From Polytrichum commune (Eukaryota > Streptophyta > Polytrichopsida > Polytrichales > Polytrichaceae): a stretch of 64,000 bases of DNA. The notes below the pieces were generated by a model that worked only from the letters and a program-made list of their open reading frames with translations, did no database searches and had not been told where the DNA came from. The translations under genes were made by a program, and so were the position numbers. The DNA is taken from contig OX485806.1 of the NCBI GenBank assembly GCA_950295325.1, positions 49,471,169 through 49,535,168 on the forward strand. The letters run 5' to 3'. Shown piece after piece: positions 43,251 through 64,000 of the stretch. How positions within the stretch are numbered: position 1 is the stretch's first letter; every line of letters begins with the position of its first letter.

Positions 43251-43480
43251 CTACAAGTCGGCGAGCCCCAACTCCCTTGTGAGCTTTGGGCTCATGAAGG
43301 AGTCCGTTGCTTCTTTGTCAATCCATGAGACATGTCTCCCATTGATTCTAGCCATGATATACATAAGATTTGGCCTTGGCTTAAAGCTACTAACCATGGC
43401 CACAAATCCACCATCTACATTCGGCTCGCGACACGAACATGATTTGTCTTGGTATGACAAAGCCAATGTTTAACATTTTG
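43251..43480 (-). pseudogene. Retrotransposon aspartic protease relic
   Basis: Frame with MYIMARINGRHVSWIDKEAT, then DSFMSPKLTRELGL. The layout is that of a gypsy protease, in which the motif DTGAxHSFMS is usual. Here the catalytic triad reads D-K-E-A, so the enzyme would be dead. It lies between the gag relic and the RNase H relic on the same strand. Confidence 0.7.
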
Positions 43481-43785
43481 TATGGGGCACAAACATGAAT
43501 TGCCTTGGTACCACAATGCCACAGTTTTAATATTTTGTCTGCGGCACAAATATAATTTGGTTTGCTACTACCAAGCCAACTTCTAATATTCCATCCGCGT
43601 TATAAACATGAATGTTTGGTACCACAAAGCCAACTTCTAACATTTTGTCTGCGAGACAAACATGATTTGGCTTCATCTGCAAAGACAACTTTTAACATTC
43701 TGTGTGCGGCACAAATATGATTTATCTTGGTAATACAAAAACACATTTTAACATTTCGTCCGCGGTACAAGCATGAATTGCTTTG
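43430..43785. repeat. Tandem repeat, ~56 bp unit, about six copies
   Basis: Units start near 43437, 43493, 43549, 43606, 43658, 43714 and 43771 with an AACATGAATTTG-like word, and contain CCAACTTCTAACATTTTGTC and CTGCGGCAC. The array sits between gag and protease, where zinc knuckles would be expected, and encodes Cys-rich stretches. Confidence 0.7.
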
Positions 43786-44250: not shown

Positions 44251-44253
44251 TAA

Positions 44254-44279
44254 CACTATATTCGTTAAATTGAGACTTT
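44254..44279 (+). other. Terminus of mobile element B (CACTATATTCG)
   Basis: The 26 bases from 44254 (beginning CACTATATTCGTTAAATTGA) are identical to 51968-51993. On the left side the sequence is gypsy gag, while at the other copy it is a MULE transposase, so this is the edge of an element inserted in two different places. CACTA is the classic start of CACTA-superfamily elements, but no inverted partner was found within the window. Confidence 0.6.
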
Positions 44280-44397
44280 TTGGGCATTTTGAGACATTCA
44301 CAAAAATAAGAAGAAGGATAAATGGAACACATATTGGAGAAAGTTGTAAGATGTGAACACTTTGAAGCGGATGTTTAGACCAAGAACCCCATTAATA

Positions 44398-44692
44398 ACT
44401 CATATTTGTGATGGTTTAGGGTGGGCAATCCAAACCTTGAACCAAATTGAAGGGGAAATATTAAAACATTCATATTATTGCACACAAAATATGAGAGCTT
44501 GTATGAATATGGTTTAGGTAGGGCAATCCAAACCATAGATCATATCGAAGGGGAAATATGATAACCAATATAATATTGCATACAAAATATTCCAAATTCA
44601 TATTTGTGATGGTTTAGGTAGGGCAATCCAAACCTTAGACCATATTGAAGGGGAAATCATGTGAAACTTATATTATTGCAAATAAAACATAC
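44398..44692. repeat. Subterminal tandem repeat, ~100 bp unit, three copies
   Basis: Units near 44401, 44500 and 44599 share TTTAGGTAGGGCAATCCAAA and GAAGGGGAAAT. A similar motif (GGGTAGAGCACTCCAAAC) occurs at 52110-52180, at the corresponding position in the other element. Repeats of this kind are often transposase-binding sites. Confidence 0.65.
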
Positions 44693-44798
44693 AATGTATG
44701 GCATTTTAAATGCATAGCATGCTAACACCACACATCCATTGGATAGTGCGACCCAAAATCATCTTGCCTATGGCCCAAAAGCCTACGCCTACTATGGC

Positions 44799-46585
44799 CT
44801 ATTTAGCCTTGGAGAGTGTCTCTTTTTCTTTTGCATCTTTTTCTTTTGATGCGGCTTCTTTTGCTCGCATTGCTTCAACATTCCTGAAAATCTCCGCCCC
44901 GCGACTATAGCCAAGGTTGGGACGTGAGCCATCCATAACACATTTTGCATTCCGTCGGCCGCCCGAAGTATACGACGAAGAATTCAAATACGATGAAGTG
45001 GATTGTTTAGCATTTCTGGTCATGGAGTAGAAACGCTCCAACTCGATGGACGCACTAGACCACATAGGTTTACGAGTGGGAGTAACCTGCAACGCGTCAA
45101 TGCAATAACACATGTGTTAGTTTAGGGAGGAAGACCCAAACGTGTCATACGTTCCTTTTTTTGTGCAAAATGATTGTAATGCGTGGTTAACCATGTTGGG
45201 GGGGGGGTTCACCTTGTCACCGGGGGCGTTCGCGTCCGAGTTGACGAGGAGGGGCAAGGCATCCCGCAAAGGAATAGGAAGGGTGCCACTCTTCGTAGGC
45301 CAAGCGTCCATCCGCAGCCGCCGTTGAGGTGTAATATTGCCGCCAAGCCGAGAGGGGGACGCCCCGACGCATTTGCGATCTATGCCCTTGAGTGGCGACG
45401 GGTACGGGGATTGCCGGAAGATTTGCTTGGGTGGGGGGCTATCGACGACGCCGGCGTCAATAGGCTCCTTGGAGTAGTCAATGGTTGACGCGGCGTCGTA
45501 AACGGTATCGTAGAAGAAACTCCCCAAGTTTGAGTCGCTGAAGATCTCAATCGAGGGCTCCAAACGCTGGCGCCAAAATGGAAACAAAACAAAACCAAAG
45601 GGAAGAGGGAGAGATAGAGCGCGTGAAAATCAAGATACATATGAAGCATATATTACAAAAAGTGGGCGCGCGCGCACACACACACACACACACATACAAA
45701 CACATGTACTCTCTCAAATGAGTTTGTTAAATTTTGCGTGAGAGAACAACTCTCTGTACAAATGGTCTCGTGGATCCAAGTATCTCTCGCCTATCGGATT
45801 ATTCCTAACAAAATTGTTTATGGGTTGTCTGCTACCCCAGAGCGCCTGCAGGTATTTACTAAGGTCTAACAAAAATCGGTCCCACACCTTCTCGACCGTC
45901 CACGTAGGGCAAACTATTAAGTTGGTCGTTGGGTTCAACATGTTCTTGGCGGCGCTGTCGTCCACCATGAGCGTGTTCTCGCGGGTGGGACGGACGTCGT
46001 AGGGGACGCCTATCAAGGACGGTCGCTGGTCCCAAAAAATGGGCTTCAAGACCTTGAGATATTGGGGCAACGCGGGGTTGTTTGGTTTTTTGACGACTTT
46101 GTCGTCCTGTGTGTACAATATTCTACATGCTTCTTGTGCTAGGACCAGGCAGGGGGGCTCGATGCCCTTGAACATGAACTCCATGACCGCATTGGTGTTC
46201 TCGGCCTTCATGGAGCTCCACACGACCACCCACCATTTTGTTTGGGCAATCTGCAGGAAGCGCAGGAGCCACGGCCGGAGGTGCACTAGCTTGTTCTTTA
46301 TGAACGTGGCCGGCCCGTCATAATTCACGTCCTCGGGTTTCCAAAAGGGAACCGTGGGGATCCTTGGGCAATGAATGCACTAGACGAGGACCCCGTTCAA
46401 GTCTAACACCAGGAATTGTTTCTTCGGTAGCGAGTGCGGGGCGGGTAAAACCGGGGGGGCCGCCGCGCTGCCTTCTCCGCTCCTTGGAGAAGAGCGTCGG
46501 GGAGCCGCTACGCTATGCTCTGAGCCCTGCGGATACGAGCGAGAGAAAATGGTGGGCGACTTATGTCATGCTATGTCCAAACAAA
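44799..46585 (-). pseudogene. FCP1/TFIIF-phosphatase-like (HAD) domain gene, interrupted
   Basis: Read right to left. The domain begins with LPKKQFLVLDLNGVLV, then an in-frame TAG (46380-46382). It continues PFWKPEDVNYDGPATF, LRPWLLRFLQIAQ, VVWSSMKAENTNAVM, KPIFWDQRPSL and LMVDDSAAKNMLNP. These match the HAD motifs of FCP1/SCP-type phosphatases, but the first motif is D-L-N instead of D-x-D, so the second catalytic Asp is replaced. The last ORF ends at 45714. Two further frames, 45117-45587 and 44799-45113 (the second starting after TTGCAG and ending in a Lys/Glu-rich tail), look like downstream exons, but the splice phases do not join cleanly. The 5' side is cut by a solo LTR at 46591. The gene is probably carried by mobile element B. 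Confidence 0.65.
45665..45694. repeat. (GC)n(AC)n microsatellite
   Basis: An alternating GC run followed by about ten AC units, in the gap between two exons of the phosphatase-like gene. Confidence 0.9.
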
Positions 46586-46590
46586 GCAAT

Positions 46591-47566
46591 TGTTGCAACC
46601 CTTGCTAGCCCCCTTAGCAATCTTGCCAATTTTCCTTTCTAGCAAAGGTTACGAGTGCTAACCCTTCGCATACCGCCATGCTAATGCTTAGCTCCTCCTA
46701 CCCCGGACCATATAATTCATAGGAGGGAACCAACCCTCCTACTTTGCTTTCGGGACTCACCCCTTAATCGGTAACCCATTTCTTCGATGTGGACTTCCAT
46801 CCATGGAAGTCCAATCCTATGTTGATCATCGCATTGCCGGAGCAAGACTACAACAACCCGAACCATACTAGGCAACTATGGCCTCACAATGGGCCAAAGC
46901 CCATGGAGGCCGTGCCGTTTGGCCTCGGGTGGGTGAGGCCACACCACCTCACCCATATAAGCCTTTAGGACTCTACGCGGGGCCCCTACCCCACCGTCAA
47001 CCAACCTCTTGTCTCTCCACCAAGAGTTGGGGCCAAGTAGACATTTTCCTCTAGCCGCTGGGCCTAGATGCCCCCAGCAGCTTCAGACCATCATAACTTC
47101 CTTGTATGATGTCTGATGCTAACAAAAAAAAACCACTCCATCCTCATCTACGCTTCACGTAGATGCCGATAGACTCCTCACTTGCCCCATTTGGGTAATT
47201 CTTGAGGAAGTTATGCCTGTTTGAACCTTGGCAGTCCCGGGAATCACTCCCAGGCACTGCTGTACCAGGGCGCTGTCCCGGGACAGCGCCCCACTCAAAT
47301 GGCCATAACTCCTAGCTCACACCTCCGATTGAGGTGATCTTGAGCATTCTAGAATCACCACGCCATGAGCTACGCATAGCTTATAGCCCTTCCCTTGTGC
47401 CTCCTAGTCTCCGTGGGTGGGAGGCGTTCCCAACGCCCGCGGCCCTCACCCACACTAGGATCACTTGGGCCCTCTCACCAACGGCGCCACAAGTCCCGGG
47501 TGTCACTCCGGGGTCCCCCTTGTGCCCATGGTGTTTCGGGCACTCTTCATGGAGAGGTGCGCAACA
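46591..47566. mobile_element. Solo LTR, family TGTYGCAACC, with GCAAT duplication
   Basis: Begins TGTTGCAACC and ends GTGCGCAACA, with exact 5-bp repeats GCAAT on both sides (46586-46590 and 47567-47571). It is similar along its length to the LTR at 24696-25630. It separates the phosphatase-like domain from its probable 5' region. Confidence 0.9.
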
Positions 47567-47571
47567 GCAAT

Positions 47572-48690
47572 AAGGAGATGAGCGTTCTCGACGCAAACAC
47601 AAAACCATTTGATTCATTGGCAGGGACGCAACAAGGCATGCAAGAGACGCAATAGCATACATGATACATTCGAACACAAGATGCAAGTATATAGGAGTCA
47701 AAAATGGTGATTATATTATATACAATGCTCTATGTACATCTTGATTGGGGGGAGCCGCATTGAACGATGCGTTCAAACTAGCCTAGTTCTACATCTAACA
47801 AACTTTGAAGAGACGCGCCGCCGTGATGAAGACTTCGTCGCAAGCCAGGGTAGGTGGACGAATGGATGATCGCGGGGGGGAGGGTGGCGAAGGGCGCAAG
47901 TGCGGGCGAGCATTTGGGGCTGGTGTGGGTGACGGGTGGGTAAGTTCCTCCTAGCTAGGAGACACAACCAAGGCAAGAAAACAAAAACCCAAGGAGTTTG
48001 GGTCAAACGACCCAACCTGAGTGGGTTCAGTGCATTACCTCGCCTTGGTCGTGCCTTGATGACGTTGATGCCGTCAACGTGCGCGCTGCCCCACCTCTGT
48101 CACCACCGCCTCCTCCGACAACGTCAACGGCAACCTACTCCTGCAAAGGCTGACTGTCAGGCCTTTGTCCCAACCCAACCTCCGCATGCGCATCATGCAT
48201 TGGTTCATCGACTAGGTTAGGAGTAGAGGTATCACCAGGCCCTTGCGGGCCTTCAACATCTAGCATAGGCTCGTCCACCGGGGTCTGATCTGGGACGGGG
48301 TTTGGGTCGGCCGACCCAAACCCTGCTGCTTGGCGAGGGGACGAGACTTGTATGCGAGTAATGGGCGGAGAGCAGAAAATGGAGACCATAATCCAAATAT
48401 AGACATTTAGCTAAATTTAGCTTGCAAAATCTAGCAGTTTGGAATATATTTCAAAAATATTCCAAGAATATTATTTTTTTGGGCCAATTTTTGAGACCTT
48501 TAACCGTGGACCCAGGGGGTTTAAAGATTGAGAAATTCCTTTTTTTTCCTATTACCGTGCTCTCACTTTCCAGTAATATTGGTTGATTTAAACAAAAAAA
48601 AATTAACGGGTTTGTTTACGTTGACTATTCATTTTTGCAGATTAGCCGTCATTTCTCCACCTTCTTCGTCCCGGATATGACTATTGAAAA
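47572..48690. other. Upstream region of the phosphatase-like gene, with two dyads
   Basis: Holds the dyads at 47997-48016 and 48301-48320. A minus-strand frame at 48135-48389 starts with ATG and is acidic and proline-rich (ending RPDSQPLQE). It may be a 5' exon of the phosphatase-like gene, but no junction can be proven. Confidence 0.4.
47997..48323. repeat. Dyad sites TTTGGGTC...GACCCAAA (2 copies)
   Basis: 47997-48016 is a degenerate copy (centre AAA). 48301-48320 is TTTGGGTCGGCCGACCCAAA, which with its flanks (48298-48323) forms a perfect 26-bp palindrome. These are the leftmost members of the dyad family described at 55767-56806. Confidence 0.85.
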
Positions 48691-48871
48691 ACTACAAAAG
48701 GTGGCAACTACATATGTGGATGCTTCCTTTAAGGCTAGATGGCTTCGGTGGTGGAATTCCCCCGCCGAGGTCAAAACCAAAAACAAGTTCCCCTCTTCTC
48801 GTCCCCTTCGGGAGAAAACCCTCGATGACTGGCTTCACAAAGCTTCTTTTTGGGCACAGGTGCTCCAATAA
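48635..48871 (+). CDS. Possible exon of an unknown gene
   Basis: The plus-strand frame follows a good acceptor (TTTTTGCAG at about 48640) and reads SRHFSTFFVPDMTIEKLQKV, then FKARWLRWWNSP, ending WLHKASFWAQVLQ-stop. The composition (several Trp, varied residues) looks like real protein more than noise, but I recognise no family and no preceding exon. A minus-strand frame overlaps it; both cannot be main coding sequences. Confidence 0.3.
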   Translation: MQISRHFSTFFVPDMTIEKLQKVATTYVDASFKARWLRWWNSPAEVKTKNKFPSSRPLREKTLDDWLHKASFWAQVLQ

Positions 48872-49378
48872 AAAAAAAACCCTAAAAGACCAAAATCCAA
48901 AACCCGATATCAGTTGCATGCTCCTCCTCCGTGGCAGTCTATAAATACTGTCTGCCTTACTCAAATGTTCATTCTCACGAAGCTTTTGAATCACTGCGGC
49001 CCCTACTCTGAGGTGAACACAAGAATCAAGTATAGGTTTTAGAAACCCATCTTCCGGTTCCATCAAGCTCGTCTCTTCAAGCTCGTCCTCCGCACTGTAC
49101 TCTTCCGATGTGGGATTGGACTGCGTCCCCACATCTTTTGATGCTCCTCCAGACTGACATCCTTGGCCCTGGGACGTTGACGGACCTTCAGATTCATCTA
49201 CCGTCGACAATGTTGCGTTCTCCCCTGTGTCTTCAAAATCTAAAACTTTGTTAATTCCATTTGTTTTGTATTTTTCGTGTTGTGCCTTCTTCCTCCCCAT
49301 TCTACTCGTCTTCAATGCCTTAGTGCTACTAAAATACAACTTCCCTCTCTTTTTCCTTCTCTTGATATGGTTCTGCAT
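48692..49378 (-). CDS. Hypothetical basic, serine-rich protein
   Basis: From ATG 49378 the frame gives about 228 residues. It opens with a basic, nuclear-localisation-like cluster (IKRRKKRGK, RMGRKKAQ). A Ser/Thr/Glu-rich acidic segment follows (SEEYSAEDELEETSLMEPED), then a C-terminal part without recognisable domain. The lower half overlaps the plus-strand exon candidate and is probably not coding. It lies immediately left of the MULE-type transposase relic and reads away from it. Confidence 0.3.
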   Translation of the reverse strand: MQNHIKRRKKRGKLYFSSTKALKTSRMGRKKAQHEKYKTNGINKVLDFEDTGENATLSTVDESEGPSTSQGQGCQSGGASKDVGTQSNPTSEEYSAEDELEETSLMEPEDGFLKPILDSCVHLRVGAAVIQKLRENEHLSKADSIYRLPRRRSMQLISGFGFWSFRVFFLLEHLCPKRSFVKPVIEGFLPKGTRRGELVFGFDLGGGIPPPKPSSLKGSIHICSCHLL

Positions 49379-49861
49379 GTCAGGTATCACCCTTCCAGAG
49401 CATGTCTACTCCAACATTCCCAAAACCCTCCCTTGAACCGAACACATCTTATGGCACTCGAGAGTCCATAACTTATGATTCTAAAACAAAGGAGATGAAT
49501 ATCACGAGATCTTATACAAGTGTTCGCACGAGGAACAGTCCTATATTTAATGTCCAATTGGGTATTTGTTATTCGTTCTATTCATGTCTTGAAACGTCAA
49601 GTCTATCTCTAGACCTAGTTATGAATCATGCTTTAAGTCGGCGCCAAATAATCAAATTTAATTGCTTGTTGAGTAGAATGTCTACCATGACTTATACGCT
49701 ATACTTATATATATCGTGACAGCGTTACCCATCACTTTTAGACTCAAGGGCGGCTGTTTTCATATTAAAAATATTAATGAAGCTTTCGTTCAGAGTTCAT
49801 CCATCATGTGGATCATGTCGTTGTCGTTGGTAGCCCATTTGTAATATATAGATGGCCCACA

Positions 49862-51966
49862 ATGTTCAGAATCCTCTTTCATATTTTCTTCTTAGTGCAA
49901 GTCCTCACTCCCCTCATCATGACTTATATTCCTGCTAAAGTAGAGTTGGGGATGGTTGTCCTCTATGCACATGGAGTGAGAGTCCCACTTACCTTTCAGA
50001 TGGAAGAGGATAGACTAGCTTACGTGACGTCACAACGTCTGAGTCTTCGGTTTGGCTTCAAAGAGGACACTATTAATGTTGAGGAGGATATTTTTGACGA
50101 TTTGACGTCAAAGCTTACACACACGCTTGGTCGGTTATCGCAGCGAGATGAGAGCAATAATTTGTTTTGGAGTCTTTATCCAGGTAGTTACCGAGTGTAT
50201 GGCCTCACTGATTCTCAGATGACTGCATCTACTGAGATCCTCACTCCTCGTTGTTCCTCTACATGCATCATTCAAACTCTTTTGCCACGTGATGTGAAGG
50301 TCAAGCTCAAGCCCGGTCTCGACACGCCAATTGTAGAAAACGTTAGAGTTCAGTATGTAATTACATTTTCTTCAGATGAAGAGGGTAGTCCCACCAGGCC
50401 CCCGCCTCAGGTTATAGTTAGTGGGAACACTCCTAAAGTATATTCTTTGTCGCAAAAGACTGTTAGCATATTTCCATTGCTAAAACAACTTGCAGGAAGG
50501 CCGGGAAAAAAAATATTCTAAAAAAATTAGATTACTCAGTGATTAGACACAAAAGAGTAGAGTACCTTCCTGCTATGTTCGATGGTGTCGTCATATTTGA
50601 GTTGCCACCCGCTGGTGACACGGCCGCACGGTCACATGCCAAGTCAATGCAGGGAATGGACAAGCGTTACGACGGCCATGTGTGGACGAAGACCATCACA
50701 ACCAACATCACAAACGACGTTGGTTTGTCTTTCCGTTATTCCACCTTCGTTGGACACTTGCGTTGCAACAATAAGAAGTGCGAATATTTGAACCGCCGAC
50801 CTCGAATCTTCCAAGTCAACGAGACATAGTTTGAAGGTTGTACCCTCCAAGCCTTTGTAGTGGATCAATCACCCCCAACTGACTCTACGCTTGTTTGCAA
50901 GGTATGTAAAGAACCCCCGGCATGTATTGCCAAATGTGGAGCTAAGATTTATTATGTGGTTGGCAAAAGCAACCGAACCAGAGCGTGTATCCACCTAGGA
51001 ATTCATGATCACCCAGTGAAGGTGGGCGACTACAAAGACACTAAGGCTGAGATCAGTGGCCTAATTGAAGAGCAGATCGAGAAGACTCCACAAGCTACCA
51101 AGAGTGCAGTGGTGTTGGAGGCTAGCAAAGTTCTAATTGGAAACTATCTTCTTCAACCCGAGGACGTGCCACCCAAGAAGTTGACTCTAGAGGAACTTGT
51201 TCCTGTATTTGACCGATGCAAGGACATGGCTTCTCCAAACATCCGCAACAAGGTCATGAGCTTCTGTTTCCTGAGAAGGTATGGTGTCATGGACTCTATC
51301 ACCAAACTCCGTGGAATTAGTTTATGGGCCTTTGTTCAGGAGAACAAATTTCCAGGTTAAGGGGCTGATCTTAACAAGGTTTTTGTCTTCAAGATGTCGG
51401 AAGTCGGGCCTGGTAGTGGGGTAGACTTGGTGAAGCGTATGCAGCCCGGTGAAGATTTGGAGAATGCCTGGATGATGTTTGACCATGTCAAACGGGTAAG
51501 ACAATGGACCACAATGGCATGCCACGTATATGACTCCACGTATTGCCGTGTCATGACCATTGCAAGCTGTGACATGCAATCCGAGGACTCTGAGGCCCAG
51601 ATCATTTTTTGGAAGAATCTCAATGCTGTCATGGAGAGGAATGGCGTTGTCAAGCCCAACTTCAAGGGTTTCATGGCCGACAGCGTCTAGGCCAACTGGA
51701 ATGCAGTTCGGGTCATATATGGCAACGGGAAGAAGGACGACCGTATGGACGACCGGGAGAGAACCTGTCAGTTTCACTGGACCCAGTCTATGGTTAAGTA
51801 CACCGAGAAGTACATTCCCGAAGAACTCTGGGAGCACCACAAGAAGATGTGCCACCAATATAGGACCGCGAGGACCATGGACCAAGCGGAGAGTTTGTAC
51901 CACGGGCTACGTGCATGGTGGGTATCCGCCAGGGCAGTGACAGAGAAGGCACTAAACAAACTAGAA
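49862..51966 (+). pseudogene. GCM1/WRKY-zinc-finger MULE-like transposase, broken and truncated
   Basis: An N-terminal unknown domain is followed by AMFDGVVIFELPPAGD, FRYSTFVGHLRCNNKKCEYL, CKVCKEPPACIAKCGAKIYY and SNRTRACIHLGIHDHPV, a Cys/His zinc-binding region of the GCM1/WRKY type. The DDE-like part follows with VYDSTYCRVMTIASCDMQSE and NFKGFMADSV. Breaks are a one-base shift in an A8 run near 50508-50515 and stops at 50827-50829 (TAG), 51358-51360 (TAA) and 51688-51690 (TAG). The frame ends where mobile element A begins (51968), so the C-terminus is missing. The start at 49862 is the first plausible ATG; 49919 is an alternative. Confidence 0.7.
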
Positions 51967-51967
51967 A

Positions 51968-51993
51968 CACTATATTCGTTAAATTGAGACTTT
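51968..51993 (+). other. Terminus of mobile element A (CACTATATTCG)
   Basis: Same 26 bases as at 44254-44279. It lies directly after the interrupted MULE-type transposase frame, so it marks an insertion point. To its right lie repeats of GTAGAGCACTC and then the stop codon of the DUF7869 gene. Confidence 0.6.
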
Positions 51994-52496
51994 CTCTAGT
52001 CTCAAATTAATATATGGATCAAACAACATTCCGTGTTCCGAAACTATATTGCGAACAATCTCAAATATATTATATGTTCTAATATCCCAAATCTATTATG
52101 TGTGGACATAAGCACATATGGTAGAGCACTCAACACCAACTTCATCAACAAAAACACTTTGGGTAGAGCACTCCAAACTAGTTTCATCCAATAAACATAT
52201 AAAATGGTTTATATTATTAGCATGGTCAATAAAATATAGACATTGCAACATACAAAGTGCATGCAATAAATGCATTTTTCTTCAATGGACAATTTAGTCC
52301 CAAACTTAATAAAAAAATGAACTTCACATTTGTATTGAAATATAGTAAATGAATATTCATCCAACCCCAAACAATATAGCATTCGCAAGTTCTACCCAAA
52401 CTTTGCCCCAAGTTTGAGGAGCACACATATGAGTAATATATATTCGTCGAATTACATATTACACTATAATCATGCTAACACAATCCTACCAACTTC
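51994..52496. other. Subterminal region of element A
   Basis: AT-rich, non-coding. Has two copies of a GGTAGAGCACTC motif (about 52110-52180), related to the 100-bp repeats in element B, and a TTTATATTATTAGCATGG word also similar there. Confidence 0.5.
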
Positions 52497-55400
52497 TCAT
52501 TTAACGTGGGTTGCTTCTTCTGCGATCCGAGCAAGGTTGTCTTTTGCAAAAGTTATGTACTTTTGAGGGATGGACACCGATCCACTATGATTTTTCCGTG
52601 GTTTCCATGCTATGAATATGGAATCTGTATCTATCCAAGATGGACCATGCTCAGAATCCACCTTCCACCGAAAGTTAGGGTTTGTATCCCAGCCTGTATA
52701 ATGCCGAACAACATCTTCATTCCGTGATGTCGGTCGGTAGTACTCTACTTGTATTTGTCGAAAATGAGGGCTGGAAGTTACAAAATTTGGTTTGGACAAA
52801 GCTCTTGCCACCCACACTGGCTTTGCATATGTCTCATCTCCAGGACGCAAAATGAGCATATAACCTTCATGACAATCCACTGCAATGCGGAAAGATGGTG
52901 GCGGACGACTACTAGCAGGCCCCACGTAATGGTCGTCCACATCAAACTCCTCTCGAACCTCTCCATTTCCCAAAAGACTAGCCTCCGAAGCTTGTACATT
53001 GACACGTGTTTGTGGCCAAAACCCATGCCTTAAAGTAAGGGGTGTATCTTCATGAAGGTTTGCCAAAGCGCCACGAACACGTGTCCAATATTGTATCCAA
53101 CTTCCGTAACGAAGCCAACACGATCCACCAACATCCGCTACCCTCAAACTCTCCCAATATTGTATGAAGCCTGATATGCCTTTACAAATGTCCTCCAAAT
53201 TCTTCATGGGTATTGGTTTGCAAGGCTTAGGCTCTCCGTCAGGCAACATCGTCCTTCCTTCCCCATCAACACGCCATACAAGGAGACCCTCCGGCGGGCT
53301 CCAGTCTTGTGATGTGCACAACAACTTGTATTGCATGGCGGGGACACCATCGTCACGCACGTAGAACCGAAATTGTTGTGCCTTCGTATGCCCGATCAAT
53401 CGGTGAGCTCCGCTTCGAATATACGGTTCTATAAATGCCTTGAAGTCTGGAACCTCCTCAATCATATGTGGGATGACGGGAATGTTCTCCAAATCCATGT
53501 ACGACTTCATCAACAATGGGATTGTTGGAAAATCCTCCTCGCGCAACTTCATGCTCCACCGCCCAAAGGACGCATCAATATCATCGTGCGTGTGGCCTAC
53601 CAATAGAAAGGACACAAAAACCTCCTTGAAAATGCCTTTCGCAACCAACAACGACCAATATGCAAAAACATATCTACTTTTATTGTCCTTCGCACAATTG
53701 TCCAATTGGACACGCAGAGTTGGGGGCAAATTCTTGGCAATCACATCTTCACTTGGTGGCTCCGGCAATGAGTGCACGCATACATCTCTTCCATCCAAGA
53801 CCGCTTCATATAGAGGTGTTGATCCCGAGTTTTCAAATAGCAATCTTGATGAATAGGACGGCGGTTTCTCCAAATCACGTAAAAGCTTTGCAAATGACCC
53901 TATCGTGTGGTTTGAATCCCCCGGATACAAATCAAGAGCATAATGAGCATACTTGACATCTCCATGCCCATGTGCAATCATTCCTGCAAAGGCAACCCAA
54001 TGGTTTAATATTCAACTATAACACCAAAAAATTCACATGGTGTACATGTATGGCCCCAAGTACAAACCTAAACGCACAAATTTGTGTTTAGGTAATGCAA
54101 TGCAATTGTTATCAAAATCACCTGTAACCGAAACATGAAGCTTAAAAAGGCCGTCCGTGGCTTTTATTCGATTTGCAAAACATGGTGAGGCTGTTTTGGC
54201 ATGGTCCATTTTGTCATGGATGATTGTAAGGACTTCCAAAGGCCTGGAGATGGACAAAGCTCTATTTGTGTAGTAATCATTACGGTGTGCCTCTTGCATG
54301 TTCACATGCTTGAAATAGTTCATTTGATGTGCGGCATAGGACTCTGTCCCCATCGTGTGTGCATCTCGAAGGCGTTTCAACTTCTCGCATTTGGAACAAC
54401 GGGCAAATTTGTCGCCTCGTCTTTTTGTGATGTATTCGCTAAAGTGAGATTTTTTGTTAGCACTCAGTTTCGACAACGAAATAGGGTCCAACCCGGCCTT
54501 CTCGCCAACTGCGTTTACGTCCAACAATATGTCTTTCCATTTCGTGCCTGTAGGAAGAACCTTCTCCACAACCTTTTCACCGGTTGCGAGTGTCCGTGTT
54601 TTGTGCGGCATTGCATCGGCAAGGGGGACAATGATGGTTGCCAGAGTGGCTGTTGCTTGTCTCGTTGCTTCTCTTGGTTTCTTTAAGCCCGTGTTCCCAT
54701 GGTGACGGGCACGGCGGCCTTCATTGGCATACGCGGCTTGTCTATAAAATTCCGCTTTCGACACACCGTGAATGGTGTACCATGCCGTACAACACACGTC
54801 TATGCTCTCAAGGGTGATGACCTTGCGACCCGCTCCGTTCACATGTATCGCCCTATGGACATCAAGTTTTTTGGTGGATCTTAGACGGAAATCTCCAAGC
54901 CACATTTCTTCACGGATGGCCTTCAATTTATCTCTTGGGAACAATTGGCAACAACGATGTACACAACAATCCTTCGTAGCAACTTCTCTAATAGACTCCT
55001 CACAGAGCAACCTTTGACGTTTACACTTATTTGCAGACGGAGTAAGACGTGTCAATGTTTCGTACTTCCGAAGGCCTTTGCGTGGCCGAATGTTTGCTTG
55101 GAGCTCCTGTTGGATTTGGACGTGTCGTCGCTCATGGTCGCGCAAACTAACCCCCTCAATTGTCACATTCCTCAACGGCCACCTTCGCAACGAGAACCTA
55201 TGAGTTGGATTGACTTCCGAATGTACAAGTGATTCTAATATAACAACTCCAACGTCCTCGGTGCCAAGGGAGTGTTCATCAATGCAATCTTGTGGATGTG
55301 TGTTACGACAAATACCCTCCGCCACAGCAAATCCACTGTCATTAACAAGTACCACATCCAAATTCACCCATGAAGCTCGTGAAAGCCCCGCACATTCCAC

Positions 55401-55586
55401 AATGGGGCAAAAAGGGTCAGATGGCGAAGGACTCCCCAAATGACCTTCATCTGCACTGTCATCAAAACTATCCTCCCCGACAATGTCTAGCTCATCCCCA
55501 GACAGAGATTGGGTGCTGCCCATGTCTTCAGAGAAGGAATCCCCTCTTCCACCAACTCCCTCCATTGCGCCTACACAAATGCACAT
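52497..55586 (-). CDS. DUF7869-type presumed DDE transposase, two exons, intact
   Basis: Exon 1 is 55586-54068 and exon 2 is 53983-52497. An 84-bp intron with TTAG/GTTTGT and TTTGCAG/GA borders joins in frame to give 1001 residues. The N-terminus is acidic (EDSFDDSADEGH). A Cys-rich segment CCVHRCCQLF is followed by a conserved region with HGNTGLKK, then a CSKCEKL zinc-like motif. The putative nuclease has IIHDKMDHAKTASP (about residue 458), VQLDNCAKDNKSRYVF (Asp 601) and LLVGHTHDDIDASF (about 634-646). I connect these motifs with the DUF7869 family found in eukaryotic transposons; the catalytic role is inferred. No stop or shift interrupts it. The gene lies inside element A, with the dyad array upstream, which may be its binding site. 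Confidence 0.65.
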
Positions 55587-55766
55587 GAAACCTCAACAAA
55601 CATGGACACAACGTAAGGGTCCAAAAAAATCAAATATTGGAAAATGCAAAACATCACGATAAATGGGGACACTGAGGATCAAGACATTTGCAACACAAAT
55701 GCAATGTGAGCTCCCAATACTATGCGCCAGTCCACAAAATGTTCCACAAAATATTTTGGGTGGGAG
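55587..55766. promoter_or_regulatory. Upstream region of the DUF7869 gene
   Basis: About 180 bp between the start codon and the first dyad. Holds the promoter if transcription starts near the gene, but no clear TATA box was identified. Confidence 0.3.
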
Positions 55767-56806
55767 TTTGGGTCGGCCGACCTAAACCCTGTGGCACCAG
55801 GGATTGAGGGCCATCCACACCTTGCCCGTGGGATAGGGTCGGGTTCCGGTCGACCGACTCAAACCTTGTACAATGATGGGTTGAGGGCCATTTAGAATTC
55901 CATCACGCTGTGGGGAAAATTTTGGGTCGACCGACCCAATCTTTGTCATGGTCAACTACAACCTCCGAAACTGGGGAAGGGGTTGGGTCGACCGACCCAA
56001 TCTTTGACGGGGTTAATCCACCCACACTGGATAGGGGTTTGGGTCGGTCGACCCAAACTTTCACAGGCTAAATCCATCCACACTGGGAAGGGGTTTGGGT
56101 CGACCGACCCAAACTTTCACAGGGTAAACCCACCACACTCGGAAGGGGTTTGGGTCGGTCGACCCAAACTTTCACAGTGTAAATCCACCCACACTGGGAT
56201 GAGGTTTGGGTCGCTCGACCCAAACATTACATATGATGGGATAAGGTTCCTACTCTGTCCGTCCAAACCTTCTGAGTACCTTGGGTAAGGGCCATTAACA
56301 ATTCGTTCACGATGTGCGAAAAAGTTTGGGTCGACCGACCCAAACCTTCTGAAAGGTTTTACGATAAACGCCCATAGTGGGGTAGGGGTTTGGGTCGACC
56401 GACCCAAATCTCAGAAGGGTCAGACTAGACCCCCCCCCCCAACACTAGTGAAGGGGTTTGGGTCGACCGACCCAAACCTCACAAGGGTCAGACTAGACCC
56501 CCCCCCAAACACTAGTGAAGGGGTTTGGGTCGACCGACCCAAACCTCACAAGGGTCAGACTAGACCCCCCCCCCCAACACTAGTGAAGGGGTTTGGGTCG
56601 ATCGACCCAAACCTCACAAGGGTCAGGCTAGACCCCCCCCCCAACACTAGTGAAGGGGTTTGGGTCGACCGACCCAAACCTCACAAGGGTGAGACTAGAA
56701 CCCGCCCACACTAGTGGAGGGGTTTGGGTCGATCGACCCAAACCTCAGAATGGTCAGACTAGAACCCGCCCACACTAGTGGAGGGGTTTGGGTCGACCGA
56801 CCCAAA
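55767..56806. repeat. Array of 16 dyads TTTGGGTCG-NN-CGACCCAAA
   Basis: Sites start at 55767, 55844, 55921, 55982, 56038, 56094, 56149, 56205, 56325, 56389, 56457, 56524, 56592, 56659, 56723 and 56787. Spacing is about 55-77 bp (once double). The right half is a tandem repeat of 64-68 bp with a C-run and CACTAGTG. The central pair varies (AC, GT, AT, GC, CT) but the 9-bp arms are largely constant. The encoded DPN/DRPK frames on both strands are a by-product of the repeat. Confidence 0.95.
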
Positions 56807-56857
56807 CCTCACAAGGGTCAGACTGAAACCCGCCAACACTAGTGTCGACCGACGTAT

Positions 56858-56894
56858 AATACAGCGTATAATGCGGCGTATAATGCAGCGGATA
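56858..56894. repeat. 12-bp tandem repeat GTATAATGCGGC
   Basis: Three near-copies, with a degenerate fourth, immediately right of the dyad array. Confidence 0.75.
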
Positions 56895-57660
56895 TTGAGA
56901 GGTGTGTGGAATTTCATCTCATTGCAAAGTTCACTGCGGACTTGCATGCTGTGAATAGGTCCTCATGAACAACAGCGTGAACGAACCTCGAAGTACAGCT
57001 CCGACTAAGAGTTCTCTCTACGAATTCAGGAGTGGGAGAAGAGCAAAAAAGAACCAACTTTTGGGGGGTGCGCCCCTTTATACTATCCACCTCCACTTGC
57101 CCGACTTCCTCATTGGATGCCTTTCCCGCCTTCTTATTTCAAACCTCCTGACAGAATTCCCCGTTTTCTGTTTATTGTAGAAAATGCGCATCTTTCAATG
57201 CCCCTCTCATACCCCAGCCGTCATATGTCTTAGTCTATGATATTTAATCTTTTTTTGGTTTTGTGTGTATATGACATACGACATTGGGAGGAAGGGTGGC
57301 GGCCACATTAATTTTTTCAAGTGTCACAACGGTATATTTTAACCAATATGTATACCCAACCACAACTCCATTCAATGCTTTCAAGTGCAAACCTATTTAG
57401 GTGGGGTTGGGGCCATTTGGAGGTTGCAATTATGAGAGAGTTTCCAAGGCTTGAGGCCATTGTCATGATGAATAAAATTATTTATTTGTCTCCCCTAAAC
57501 CCTAAACCCTAGAACATTGCGGCTCTGTTATCTCGCATGGAAGTGTGGCAATGATAAACGTATGTGGACGTTGTTAAGGGGATACTAACTAGCAATGTCG
57601 CTTTTTGGTTCAATCTTTTAATGTTATTTCAATCCATCCTCAAGTTCACTTCAAGTTTAC
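56895..57660. other. Intergenic DNA, with a short CCCTAAA run
   Basis: No gene recognised. Contains CTAAACCCTAAACCCTAG at about 57494-57511, a plant telomere-like run. Confidence 0.4.
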
Positions 57661-58500
57661 TAATGTGTGTGACCAAAACATCCAAAGTTGGACCCTAAAC
57701 CCTTATAACATCCACAACATGAAATACGTATTGACAAAATACAAAACCAATTAGTATATCATGTTTAAACGTCCCAAATAACATATTAACATGATCAAGA
57801 TTGTATTTACTATAACCTTCCTATTAGACTCTTCTTCATATTATGCAAACAATATCTGTTATATCTTTCTCCATTATCCAATACATGTGGAGGGAACAAT
57901 GAATAAGAACATGATTGCGTGAATGGCTTCATTTGATGTTGTGCTTCTCTTATTTACTTTTGCATCACATTCCATATATTAAATACATCATGAACCATGG
58001 TTTATTGGCGACTATGTGATTCCCTAAAGTGAGCAAAACATCCAAAGTTGAACCCCTTACCCCTAATAACATCCACAACATTTCATGTTATTTGAATAAA
58101 CACAAGACCATTCACTATATCACGTTTAAACGTCCATAATAACAAATAAACATAATCAAGATCGTCTTTTCTATTACCTTCCAGTAAAAACCTATTCTCA
58201 CCAGTAAGTCAATGTTATATGTTAATATTGGATAGATTAATATGTTATAAACCTAACTCCTAAACCCTAAACCCTAAACCCTAAATACAAAAATTCGTAG
58301 TTGTTCACTGCTACCTCCACATACAAACAACATGAACTTTATCTTGCGCCATTATGTAATATACGTGGAGGGAACATTCAATAACAACATGATTGCGTCA
58401 AAGGGCTTCATTTGATGTTGTGGTTCTCCGATTTACTTTTATATCACATTCGAAGTACATATATCACGATCCATGGTTTATTGGCGACTATGTGATTCAT
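57661..58500. repeat. Imperfect tandem duplication with telomere-like run
   Basis: Two copies share AAAACATCCAAAGTTG, then TGGAGGGAACAAT and GGTTTATTGGCGACTATGTG (57669-58022 and 58031-58498). The second copy holds an insert with three CCCTAAA units at about 58261-58284. No coding potential. Confidence 0.75.
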
Positions 58501-58942
58501 TCAAGTGAGTATGTAAGGGATTTACTAAAAACTTGAGCATGTTAGCATTTCGACATAAGGATCATGCAATTCCAAACCCTGAGAAAATGCTCTTGGGGAA
58601 GGTATACATTTAGCAAACACATTCAAATATCCTAAATTTCCGAATTTCATGTTGGGGGACGGGGGTTATATTTTTTATTCATTGCATATTGTGTGAGTTC
58701 TTGGCATCATTGGTAAAGTCTAAATGTCAACGATTACATCGTTAAATGTCACGCAATTGTATTATTTTTCTAACTTGCTCAAACAAAAGAGAAACCAATG
58801 ATTTCAACTTGTTTGGGAAATTTAGGTTATGGTGTCATGTGAGTAGGGGTTAAGTCTTAGTTTTAGCATAACGTTGCGTTGTAAAAATGCATTAGTTGTA
58901 TAAATGGTTTCATTTTGTAGAATACCGCATTTGATGTGCACC
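58501..58942. other. Intergenic DNA, nothing recognised
   Basis: AT-rich; no feature supported. Confidence 0.4.
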
Positions 58943-58945
58943 TTA

Positions 58946-59476
58946 TGGGGCATTCCCACTTGACATTAGTTAGAAGTAGTATTAGTCTAAATGCGGTTTT
59001 AGTTATCTAGGTTTCACACATATGGCTCTTTTTAGTGCCGAGCCTAGGTGGCAAATGATGTGGCATGGCTTAAAAGTGGAGGTTTTAAGCCTCAACCACC
59101 GACGCTCCCATCGGTACCTAAACATTAGGCAAGAATATAGGAATTTTAAAAGTGTCGCCTCCCACCCTTGTGATTGGTTGCTTTTTAGTCTTAGCTATGA
59201 GGGCACGAGGAGCTTCATTAACAAAAACCGATGGTAAGATAGGTGAGTAGTAAGGCATTTGGGGATGGGACAAAAACTACCCAACATTCATTGCTTGGTA
59301 GATAAAACCATGAACATGTGTGAAAGCTACTTAACTAAAACCTACTTGAAAATCTCCGGAGCAAGTTCTTGTAGGTGCATTGGGATAGTTGGATGCCTCC
59401 GCTATAACCGAGGGAGCTTTACCCGGTCTTTATAAAATAGTGAGGGTCTTAACTAAAGTCAAGTGGGAATGCCCCA
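58946..59476. mobile_element. TIR element with TTA duplication (PIF/Harbinger-like MITE)
   Basis: Ends are TGGGGCATTCCCACTTGAC and its exact reverse complement, with weaker similarity beyond that to about 32 bp. Flanked by TTA on both sides (58943-58945 and 59477-59479). A 3-bp TTA/TAA duplication is characteristic of PIF/Harbinger elements. The 531-bp interior has no transposase, so it is non-autonomous. Confidence 0.8.
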
Positions 59477-59599
59477 TTAGGGTACTCCAAAGTGTCTTGA
59501 AAATACTAATGCCCGCTAAGGGTTTACAGTTTGGCTTTAGGATTTAGGGTTCCCCGTAATCCTAATTCCGTTGGTGCCCTAATCCCGTTGGCACCCTAT

Positions 59600-60390
59600 T
59601 CGTGCGGTTGGGGGCCAATTCCCGAGGCATACAAAACCCCAGCCGTCACAACTTTTCGCTCTTTCTCTCTCTCTCCGCGCCAAGCATTCGCTCCGCGCCT
59701 CTTGTGGAAGCGCCGCCTCTCCTGAAGCGCCGCTTTCGCGAAGCGCCGTGGCGATTCAGGGTGGCGATTTTCTTCTCTTCCCTCCCTTCTTGTTGCTTTG
59801 GCGCCTACTGATTCTTCTCCTTCCCTCCCTTCTCTTGCTGTAGAAGTTAGGAAGTGTTTGCAATAGAACAGAAACCTAAGGAGAGAGTTTTAGAGTGCGT
59901 GAGAGTTAGTAGAGTGATTGTTGTAGAGTGAAGTAAGTAGAAGATTGTTGAAGGGTTTTCCAACATTCTAAGCTTGCGGGTTTTGGAGGCTGTATTGTAG
60001 TTGGAGAGTTTGTGAGATTTAGGAGTTCTATAAGATAATCAGGAGGTGTTTGAGAGATACAAAAGTCATTTGAGAGAGTCAGTCATTGTTTTGAGAGATT
60101 CACTTGTTCTTAGGGATTCAGAGGTTGTTTGAAACACTCAATTGTTGTTTGAGAGATATCTAAGTCATTTGAGAGAGTCAGTTATTGTTTTGAGAGATTC
60201 ACTTGTTCTTAGAGATTCAGAGGTTGTTTGAAGTATTGAATTGTTGTTTGAGAGATTCAAAAGAGATCTAGGAGTTGTATGAGAGATTGTGGATTTGTGT
60301 GAGAGGTTACATTCAACTGTTTCTGTGTTATTGGAAGAAGAACACCTGTTCTAAAGCAACTGTTTACAACAACTGCTACATACAACAAAG
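59600..60390 (+). promoter_or_regulatory. Probable promoter and leader exon of the ParB-like gene
   Basis: A CT-rich and GC-rich stretch at 59.6-59.85 kb is followed by transcribed-looking sequence. The leader probably ends at 60390 with CAACAAAG/GTATTTTC, the donor matching the TTACAG acceptor just before ATG 61059. It includes a tandem repeat of about 98 bp (60071-60265) built of GAGAGATTCA and TTGTTTGA words. The transcription start is unknown. Confidence 0.4.
60071..60265. repeat. Tandem repeat, ~98 bp unit, two copies
   Basis: Both copies contain TTGAGAGAGTCAGTYATTG and AGATTCACTTGTTCTTAG. They are flanked by further shorter GAGAGATTC repeats on both sides. Confidence 0.8.
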
Positions 60391-60511
60391 GTATTTTCTT
60401 TTATTATATGCAATAAGTGTTTGTCAATTGAAGGTATTGTAGCATACACAACGCATAAGCATTGTATATGCTACGTGCCAACTTTTAAAAATTACATTAA
60501 AATAGGAAAGT

Positions 60512-61028
60512 TTGGGGAGACGACCCAAACACGGCCACAGGTTTGGGTCGGTCGACCCAAACACAGCCTCTTGTTTGGGTCGACCGACCCAAACACAGCC
60601 TCTTGTTTGGGTCGACCGACCCAAACACAGTCTCTTGTTTGGGTCGACCGACCCAAACACAAAACAAAGCATCATGTTTGGGCCGAACGACCCAAACACA
60701 GCCTCTTGTTTGGGTCGACCGACCCAAACACAAAACAAAGCATCATGTTTGGGCCGAACGACCCAAACAACGTCTTCTAATTATAAACTCATAAAGAAAT
60801 CCATGATTTTTGCATCAATATAAAATTCACATCCACTAAAAAATAATAATCAAGGAATGTATCAAGGAAAAGTATCAAGTAATCCTGCATGTCACAAACA
60901 ATATAAAATGCAAATCCACCCAATAATCAAAACATTCTTATTATCAATACAAATGATGCTGAAATATATAAATATACAATCCACCTAAACCTATTCATGT
61001 CGTAGATGTTTGGGTCGAACGACCGAAA
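60512..61028. repeat. Nine dyads inside the leader intron of the ParB-like gene
   Basis: Sites begin at about 60512 (degenerate), 60542, 60574, 60606, 60638, 60677 (variant TTTGGGCCGAACGACCCAAA), 60709, 60748 (variant) and 61009 (degenerate). Spacing is exactly 32 bp for the first regular ones, with ACACAGCCTCTTG between them, then 39/32/39 bp. The unit sequence is unrelated to the 64-68 bp unit at 56 kb apart from the dyad. Intron borders inferred: 60391-61058. Confidence 0.92.
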
Positions 61029-61058
61029 CTAACATTGCACATTATTTTCTTACAGATG

Positions 61059-63969
61059 GCTCCAAAGAAAAGACCCGGCGAAAGGTGGTTCATGCCTGCG
61101 CCGGACATGTTGTGGCAGGAGCACGAAACCCCGCAGGATGACTCCTATTCCCCTAAGGACGGGCTTGTCCTCGCGTGGTCTATACAAGTGGTTAAGGGTT
61201 CGCAATACAAAATGATTTTTGTTGTGAAGGTTGGGACCGTGGAGAAGCACACATGGGCTACTCTTACGGGGTGGGAGGTGGCATCGGTTCAGTCTCTTGG
61301 AGACTACGTGGATGTCATCCTCGAGAACAATGCTGTCCAGAACGCGCATATGTTTATGCACCAGTTCTCCAAACCCTTTGACGCTATCTATGCAAAAGAA
61401 ACATGTGTAGAACCAGACGTCATCAAACCGGAGTCTATATTCATCGATAACAGTACATCGAACACAAAGATGTCGAGCAGATTCACGAAACTAAAGCATG
61501 CAATCAGCGTGCTCAACAAAGCCCTGCAGAGCAAAACCAAGTCTCAGCAACCCGTGAGGCGGAAAGCAACCACAGAGGAAGGAGCAGGGTCGTCAAGACC
61601 TCAATCGGTGAGGAAGCCGCGACCAGTACCGGCTGACTCGCGGAGGACCACTCCCTCTCAAACACCTGCGGATAGCGAGACGCCTACACCTTCTGGGAGC
61701 CGTCAAACAACTCCATCCAAGAGGGGGAGAGAGTCATCTGTGATGACTGACGAGCCAGTCTCACCGGAGTTGCGCATGCCGAAGCCCGGCGAAGATGTGG
61801 ATGCAGGGGAGCTGCAGAAAATCGTGAACAATTTCACGACGAAATGCTCCCACTGTTTTTTCATGGGCAGGGATTTTAAGTTCGACGTGAACATCAGCCA
61901 GTGCCATCTAGCGCCACCGGAGAAGTGTGTCCGGGCAAAGGAGGACGCCTACGTTGACTGGATAATCGCGCAGATCGTTTGCGAGCAGTTTAAAGACGAC
62001 AGGCAAACGATAGTAGTGATGCCACAGGGTCTCAAGAAAATGCCTACACCTGAAATGTGGCCCACAATTCAGAAGGGCGATTTTGGCTCATAGACGGCCA
62101 GCACAGCGTGGAGGCATCCAAGAAAATCCAACTCATGAATGAGTGGGATGATCCGAACAATCAGAAGGAAAAACTGAAGGTTTGGAAGGCACTAGTGGTG
62201 TGGTCTGACGACGAGACCAAGCTCAGCGACATCTCCCGGTACTTCAATATGGGAAATAAGAAGAGGGCCTACCAAGCTTCCTGGATAAGGAATATCATGG
62301 CCTCGCGGGAGGTGTGGGAGTTCTATGGTAGGCCTCCCAAGGAGAGGGAGAATGCAAAGGACAAGAATCCCAAATGGGAGGTGAGTATTGTTTAGGTCGA
62401 CCGACCCAAACTCCTGATGCAGCCTTGTTTATTTAGTTTGGGTCGACCGACCCAAACTCCTGATGCAGCTAGTTTATTTAGTTTGGGTCGACCGACCCAA
62501 ACTCCTGATGCAGCTAATTTATTTAGTTTGGGTCGATCGACCCAAACTGTTGTTGCAGATGTTGGTCATGATATGGGTTGGAAATCACATGTACATATCT
62601 AACACGCATTCAAATGTTCTGTTTTGTGGACGTGCAGGATTTCAAATACCAAATGATCAACAAATTCTCCTCCATTGATAATTCGAGCCACAAGCAGAAT
62701 AAATACAGCGACCTCAAGGGGGAGATTTACTTGATTATAGCATCTGACTCAGTTTGGAGGAAGTGGAAAACCGTGTTTGAAAAGCACGAGACGGGGGATT
62801 TGATCGACCCCGACAATGGCATTTTCTTCAGCCAAACCTCGCGCTTCAAGCAGATGAAGCCTCTCGTGAGAGAGTTCTTTAGAACTCTTCAAGGGCTGTC
62901 AGAGACGGAGGTGGAGAAGGCGGCATCTCACATCCTGCACGTGGCACCCACGGCGAAGAGGTGTTGGGTGCACCCAAAGATTGTCTTCCAAAAGCCCAAA
63001 TCCTTCGTTCCTTCATGCTACACCATGAAGGAATGGACGGATAACAGGAAAAAGAAGACGACTATCGTGCAGGAGCTGCATAAACTAGTGCCAGAGAGGA
63101 ATATTGTCGTGGACGGCGAGGTCCATGAGGCTAACTGGAGAGCATTCAAAGCTGAATATAAGTTCACCAGTGCCTCCATGGCGGCTCTAATAAGGGAAGC
63201 GGGGGACGACTTCTTGCGGGCCAAGATGGTGAAGGGTGGGAAGAACCGGGCGCTTCCGGATCACACAGCGCGTGCGTTCTCGAACTTCATCAAGGAGAAG
63301 AAGATTGTCCAGTTTGAAGGGGAAGCGTACTTCAACCTTGTCACCGCCGACCCGTTGAAAATTCAGGGCTGGCCAGGTCAAGACGCCAGAATGGCGATAA
63401 GAACGAAAGCAAGGGACCGCTTTCCTTTTGGGATGATTGATTTCAGGAATATTCCTGGAAGCTCATTTGAGGGCACGATGAGCACCCTCTTCTATGACCC
63501 CTTCCTATCTAAGTTCGTCGATTATGCAAGCCCTAAGTTCAGGGAGGTAGATATCTGGCTTTGGATAGTCGAGGATAGGAGGGCGGAGCAGGTGTACGAG
63601 CTTGTCCGGAAACTGCAGCCGGAGTATGCAGTCTCCAAGTCTCACTACATCGCCGCACCGGCGGAGGGAGCTTACATGACGTTGAGGGACAAGAAGACCA
63701 AGTTCGTCAACGTCTTGTGTTTGTACTTCGTGTACAAAGCGGAGTTGCTGAAGGTGCCGAACCACCCTATATCCCGGATGGACAAACTCTTCCAAGTTCC
63801 AGAAGGGTTGGGTGTCAACAAGTGCCTCTACGACGAGGCTAAATACGCGAACTATCCTTTAGATGAGCTGCGGATGGAATTTTACGTGAGAATGATGAGG
63901 ACGCTGACGAGGAGAGGGGATTGCATCTTCAACGTCTTCGGAGGCTCTAAACCTATCTATGCTGCCATG
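61059..63969 (+). CDS. ParB-like / DNA-methyltransferase-like protein, partial, one frameshift
   Basis: Exon 61059-62380, intron 62381-62637 (GAG/GTGAGT, GTGCAG/GAT), exon 62638-63969 (ATG/GTAAGC), continuing beyond the window. A Ser/Thr/Pro-rich linker of about residues 165-240 precedes the domain. The ParB-like region has DWIIAQIVCEQF, IVVMPQGL and FWLIDGQHSVEASKK, then a helical part with LSDISRYFNMGNKK. The second exon (444 residues) ends GDCIFNVFGGSKPIYAAM, resembling motif I of DNA methyltransferases (FxGxG). FYDPF is a weak candidate for the DPPY motif; order IV then I would fit beta-class enzymes. A one-base deficit in a T4 run at about 62083 breaks the frame just before WLIDGQ, so this copy may be a pseudogene. 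A role in binding or modifying the nearby dyads is inference. Confidence 0.55.
62391..62546. repeat. Four dyads inside the second intron of the ParB-like gene
   Basis: Sites 62391-62410 (one mismatch), 62437-62456, 62482-62501 and 62527-62546, each 45-46 bp apart, with the unit CTCCTGATGCAGCTAGTTTA. They occupy most of the 257-bp intron (62381-62637) and begin only 10 bp after the splice donor. Confidence 0.93.
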
Positions 63970-64000
63970 GTAAGCGACTTTCTATAACTCGTGCGCAGTT

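Follow-up and report, generated by a model that had tools for sequence, protein, structure and literature searches.

A 64-kb stretch of the Polytrichum commune genome (contig OX485806.1, positions 49,471,169 to 49,535,168; hereafter, the window) carries arrays of a short palindrome, or dyad, that belong to a high-copy DNA transposon designated element P. Arrays of the same 22-bp palindrome were also found in a second transposon, element M. In both elements, the arrays are located mostly in predicted introns, some of them behind promoter-like stretches, and both elements have a gene whose sequence or fold resembles that of a DNA methylase. With moderate confidence, we propose that the dyads serve in cis as docking sites, to which a ParB/methylase protein encoded by the transposon would bind and thereby shield the element from silencing. 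The cis-site part of this explanation is well supported by the sequence comparisons presented below; the binding, CTP use, spreading, anti-silencing effect, and reliance of M on a like protein are what we infer.

Sequence and conservation of the dyad

The alignment of 149 dyads from nine loci gave a true dyad length of 22 bp, G-TTTGGGTCG-NN-CGACCCAAA-C. The outer positions 0 and 21 contained 1.61 and 1.52 bits of information, although they lay outside the pattern used for selection. The central pair was nearly free (0.38 and 0.15 bits), and the flanks had less than 0.5 bits. The dyads of this set had been selected at ≤4 mismatches, and the information values of the arms are thereby inflated.

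In the window, 31 dyad matches with ≤3 mismatches were detected, versus a shuffle mean of 0.01. Thirty of them, including 21 perfect ones, are located at 47997–62546, in good agreement with the original prediction of about 31 dyads in 14.5 kb; a degenerate copy was observed at 60510. The lone match outside, at 44738, has 3 mismatches and is weak. It is the sole exception to the earlier claim that the dyad was not seen elsewhere in the window. On the scale of the genome, however, the dyad is anything but local: the 408-Mb assembly, of which about 406 Mb is in seven contigs (C1 to C7), contains 13,499 dyads with ≤2 mismatches, versus 1 for the reversed control. Therefore, the case of one satellite with fixed units needed testing. 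A single satellite was rejected, as the repeat units differ among arrays and among loci. The unit lengths initially described for the window were recovered as stated: 55–77 bp at 56 kb, 32/39 bp at 60.6 kb, and about 45 bp (measured as 45–46 bp) at 62.4 kb.

The arms had been described as constant around a variable centre. The centre does vary far more than the arms; however, 9 of the 30 dyads carry 1–3 arm changes. In four aligned arrays, minority letters occupied 5 of 414 cells in the arms, 12 of 46 in the central pair, and 73 of 657 in the remaining unit, where cells within one array share descent and are not independent, and Fisher values for these counts serve as a guide only. The alignment of arms, centre, and flanks that had been suggested as a check also demonstrated that the flanks are less conserved than the arms. 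The dyad is kept while the unit and flanks change, both within arrays and between P copies that are 84–85% alike in protein. It is likewise kept across two unrelated transposon types and in relatives for which the comparison used predicted proteins. Recognition of the dyad by a protein, or selection on it, fits these patterns better than satellite amplification. The proposal of a dimeric protein or selection was partly supported. The high-copy transposon setting and the mostly intronic location of the arrays had been missed.

Half-sites were rejected as independent signals: outside the dyads, the window contains 17 half-sites with one mismatch and a single perfect one, at 44749, which belongs to the weak 44738 match. 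A bacterial or phage site was also rejected, with no exact match in viral contigs and one stretch, from a prokaryotic metagenome-assembled genome, among 257 Gb of genome contigs, which is at chance level by our own estimate. A 300-bp stretch of array had no match in phages, and no known RNA family reached the gathering score in the window. The search by translated array for other arrays returned one match, P0046.

Elements P and M

Element P is a DNA transposon with about 590 copies, judged by its ends. Its 28-bp terminal inverted repeat, AACACTATATTCGTTAAATTGAGACTTT, located at 51966..51993 (+) at the left end of the window copy, occurs genome-wide 589 times on the plus strand and 595 times on the minus strand at ≤2 mismatches (control, 0). 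The C7 copy shows both ends, with the inverted repeats about 17.6 kb apart and ATGT on both sides. The 4-bp target duplications were present in five of six two-ended P copies (ATGT, TATA, CAAT, ACAA, and AAGT). These duplications and the paired terminal repeats are features of cut-and-paste elements, and they identify P as a DNA transposon. Among the ends listed for contig C1, 21 of 46 plus-strand ends face a partner 14.4–18.5 kb away; the outward control gave none. Six P copies were fetched at predicted ends, of which three had both ends and three had no left repeat in the stretch. For the exon adjoining the right-hand dyads, at least 95 scored copies with 91–100% identity were distributed from C1 to C7 (1,234 first-look candidates).

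The window copy of P extends from the left terminal repeat at 51966 to the window edge at 64000 and continues past it, with exons and dyads in the stretch L045. No right end was found within 6.6 kb, where a Ty3-like frame is located. The C3 copy has the same start base and is about 98–99.8% alike to 51966–64000 in pieces, except for array differences and an insertion. The first gene of the window copy, on the minus strand, includes a DUF7869 exon (52500..54011; Pfam PF25273, E 1.3e-41) and an upstream open exon (54036..55592) without a Pfam match, with a 3′ splice-like site, TTTGTGTAG, before its ATG. The DUF7869 protein is a possible transposase of P; it had no assigned fold and no significant PDB relative. 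A dyad array with units of 55–77 and then 64–68 bp and one 120-bp step (55767..56806) lies in the intron of the 5′ untranslated region of this gene, which was predicted from the 3′ splice-like site and an upstream TATA box.

The second gene encodes the ParB-methylase protein. Its predicted intron 1, with splice-like sites AAAG/GTATTT near 60390 and TTACAG/ATGG near 61055, contains an array of 32/39 bp units (60510..60767) and, near the 3′ end, a single dyad (61009..61028) found at the same place in the copies A616 and B1180. The first coding exon (61056..62090, +) has a frame broken near 62,080, which is open in homologs. The ParB-like part with the motif WLIDGQHSVEASKK lies at 62054..62381 (+), and predicted intron 2 has an array of 45–46 bp units (62391..62546) that begins 9–10 bases past the 5′ splice-like site and has a matching place in A616 and B1180. 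The next exon (62638..63969, +) encodes a predicted beta-class amino-DNA-methylase fold. Apart from two in a coding exon, the dyads of P are located in the predicted 5′ intron of the DUF7869 gene and in introns 1, 2, and 3 of the ParB-methylase gene, the introns being deduced from frame breaks and splice-like sites.

The arrays vary in length among 30 near-identical P copies, with 2–7 units in intron 2 and 3–9 units in intron 3. In the diverged copy A616 (84–85% protein identity), the arrays occupy matching places by order and spacing, and the units are 78, 57, and 36 bp versus 55–77, 45–46, and 36 bp; 38 of 41 dyads in the fetched stretch, which excludes the DUF7869 gene, are perfect.

The comparison was extended to 95 homologs of the ParB-methylase protein, some of which may come from this same species. 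They were compared as predicted proteins, whose translation continues beyond the end of the exon into intron sequence, and this part was read as a tail. The exon end was matched by the pattern in 68 homologs, and 40 tails had at least 12 residues. A canonical dyad peptide, in any of three frames, was found in 27 of the 40 tails, and in 36 of the 40 with relaxed arms. Among 37,009 exon residues, there was one canonical hit, in P0021, where the exon end had been missed by the pattern. After the dyad, the sequences of the relatives align poorly by eye. The tails of P0024, P0025, P0027, P0030, and P0077 may be read from their peptides as palindromes with other arms.

The AlphaFold2 model of the P protein contains a ParB-CTPase fold and a beta-class N6/N4 DNA-methylase fold. 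The methylase catalytic motif [DNS]PP[YFW] is absent, with no PP in the 444-residue exon, and the family consensus near the expected catalytic place reads IDFRNIPG by eye. PHROG and NCBIfam scans of P pieces revealed nothing useful, and no ParB-methylase relatives were confirmed in viral contigs. Neither the 20-base dyad nor DUF7869 is mentioned in any paper among the open-access full texts searched. Among the titles listed from the same literature, only PMC12704722 came close to the system described here.

The suggested checks had also included a test of whether the dyads cluster near ParB-like, DUF7869, and FCP1-like genes. In the first 3.5 Mb of C1, eight clusters of perfect dyads were found among the matches listed, and all eight lay in elements, five in M and three in P. 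The FCP1-like cluster is explained by the 44–48 kb piece of the window, which is the turned right end of another P copy. The ends of M differ from those of P: both copies studied have a 10-bp target duplication, and a 31-bp inverted repeat at 94–97% is set a few bases inward of both ends. Mutator-like elements produce target duplications of 8–11 bp, and M is classed here as a Mutator-like element unrelated to P. The three transposase-like frames scanned had no Pfam match. By eye, the dyads lie between the open frames of the transposase-like gene, and a second gene is preceded by a TATA-type start and a dyad array. A piece of this second gene matched PHROG DNA methyltransferases (E 6.4e-5 and 2.2e-4), and its sole Pfam match was N6_N4_Mtase, below threshold (E 0.13).

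Proposed function of the dyads and alternative explanations

According to the proposed mechanism, the P protein, with a predicted ParB-CTPase fold followed by a predicted methylase fold that lacks the catalytic motif, would dimerize on the palindrome in the manner of ParB on parS. The bound protein would spread along the element and keep it free of silencing marks, and the genes would stay expressed. Clamp loading at the palindrome and sliding would account for the protection of 17 kb by so short a site. The units would drift through tandem duplication and slippage, since selection would act on the docking site alone. Element M would rely on these sites too, either through a related protein of its own or through that of P. 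A bolder version of this model is less probable: a eukaryotic ParB–parS system may serve as transposon armour, in which a CTP-switched clamp fused to a dead methylase loads at intron palindromes, spreads over the entire element, and blocks host methylation, the palindrome being shared or borrowed by unrelated transposons and the arms of each plant lineage coevolving with the protein.

VANC of the Arabidopsis VANDAL transposons is among the closest known systems. VANC binds short motifs amplified as noncoding tandem repeats, its action causes DNA methylation to be lost along the entire element, and the VANC6 motif also occurs in the unrelated element AT9TSD1 (PMC5735166; PMC10398659). The elements described here are similar in that a short motif is amplified as tandem repeats in noncoding parts of the element, the units drift while the motif is kept, the motif is also found in an unrelated element, and the accessory protein is encoded by the element. 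In P and M, the noncoding parts are predicted introns, with the exception of two exon dyads. Unlike the 8–9 bp non-palindromic motif of VANDALs, the motif here is a 22-bp palindrome, and the accessory protein is predicted to combine a ParB-CTPase fold with a DNA-methylase fold. VANDALs are Mutator-like, as is M, whereas P is not.

With ParB–parS, Noc, and KorB, the present system shares the predicted ParB-CTPase fold and repeated palindromic sites on the encoding element; unlike them, it belongs to nuclear transposons of a plant-like genome and has intron sites, and the dyad sequence is presumably unlike that of parS. A phage ParB fused to an N6/N4 DNA methylase, for which an anti-defence role was proposed, is described in PMC12704722. 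The same two folds are combined in one protein on mobile elements in both cases, but here the elements are plant-type transposons and the catalytic motif of the methylase is lost; in the main text of that paper, no word starts with “plant” or “transpos.” Dinoflagellate and charophyte retrotransposons with captured cytosine methyltransferases (PMC5890265) are also transposons carrying a DNA-methylase gene. Those enzymes are of the C5 type, whereas P and M are DNA transposons with palindrome arrays and the fold is of the beta class.

Several observations weigh against the docking-site explanation. The tie between dyads and elements rests on a small sample of eight clusters, perfect dyads only, among the matches listed, and the sixth two-ended P copy (C3, with an internal deletion) has no target duplication. 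P proteins have no Pfam match to ParB or methylase; the Foldseek E-values for both folds are above 0.001, and the folds rest on AlphaFold2 models. No DNA-binding domain was found in the fold look-ups, and none was sought beyond them. The ParB likeness of M consists of the motif FFIWDGNHRFLAWK only, and homology between the M and P proteins was rejected, as profile comparison gave no support for it in either the ParB or the methylase part. Two dyads lie in frame in the last coding exon of P, where they read FGSTDPN and FGSPDPN (L045:1350-1369 and 1419-1438); therefore, the DNA site and the protein segment share sequence there. Two dyads with this spacing of 69 bases are also retained in the copies A616 and B1180. 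At ≤4 mismatches, perfect dyads account for 18 of 28 in B1180 and 26 of 45 in six M stretches; thus, the dyad site also decays. Finally, P and M could have the dyad in common because of a host protein.

Such a host protein (activator, insulator, or silencer), whose site would be used by both transposon types or serve to target them, is a rather unlikely explanation. It would account for one motif in two unrelated elements and for the location of some arrays behind promoter-like stretches in predicted first introns. However, all eight of the listed clusters examined are in elements, and apart from two P pieces and the weak 44738 match, there are no dyads in the rest of the window, which by eye includes an ArfGAP-like plant gene. 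Moreover, the other palindromes suggested by the peptides of some relatives imply a faster change than expected of a host factor site.

Repeated subterminal binding motifs are known in plant transposons, and the dyad could by analogy bind the transposase or a TnpA-like helper and act in transposition. This is improbable. The copies read carry their dyads in the interior, for the most part in predicted introns and kilobases away from either end, and elements with different transposase-like genes have them in common.

The palindrome might also act in RNA as an intron hairpin involved in splicing, nuclear retention, or small-RNA production. The predicted intronic location of most dyads is consistent with this, as are the folding of a lone dyad at −13.2 kcal/mol and that of 149 nt of intron 2 with a z-score of −7.8 versus shuffles. 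Nevertheless, positions 9 and 12 would lie in the hairpin loop and yet are kept in 143 and 144 of 149 dyads, in a set selected for likeness, and the doubly changed palindrome TTTCGGTCG-NN-CGACCGAAA, the one pair of arm changes counted, occurs 0 times genome-wide. We regard a role in RNA as very unlikely. Neutral self-spreading of a short palindrome or minisatellite, which conversion would copy from one element to another, would suit the variable copy number of the arrays in near-identical copies but deserves just as little credence, given that the arms change less than the remaining parts of the same units and lone dyads are retained at corresponding positions of diverged copies.

If the dyads are docking sites of a self-protective ParB/methylase protein, as proposed, transposons arrived more than once at sequence-specific self-protection by multiplying a short site in tandem; in this case, a bacterial-type ParB clamp and a methylase fold would be involved. 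It would then be testable how an anti-silencing protein with a short motif acts over a whole multi-kb element, which clamp spreading would explain, and whether unrelated transposons share such protection. The system would also provide one protein and one palindrome for the sequence-specific control of plant chromatin.

Other features of the window

The second P copy in the window is a right-end fragment on the minus strand (44252..48320) with an FCP1-like exon and dyads at 47997 and 48301. It has the same terminal repeat at 44252 and aligns at 78–95% with the C7 copy at its right end. The FCP1-like exon contains a NIF domain (E 6.2e-10), and such an exon was also found after the last exon in the 2115-kb P copy. 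In the window, the FCP1-like fragment seems by eye to have a stop near 46390.

A repeat of about 0.95 kb is inserted in P copies (window 24696-25630 and 46591-47566; L041:2865-3806; L043:1763-2735), in one case inside a dyad array, with about 5 bp of the array on both sides. Between the two P copies of the window, at 49781-51937, there are transposase-like frames, here without dyads; the part at 51374-51707 is 70% identical at the DNA level to the transposase-like gene of M. The window also contains a plant-type ArfGAP-like gene (by eye), Ty3-like frames, and telomere-like repeats. Other tandem arrays are located at 43428-43780 (56 bp units) and 44397-44690 (98–100 bp units), the latter with a weak GGTTTAGG..CCAAACC symmetry reminiscent of the dyad.

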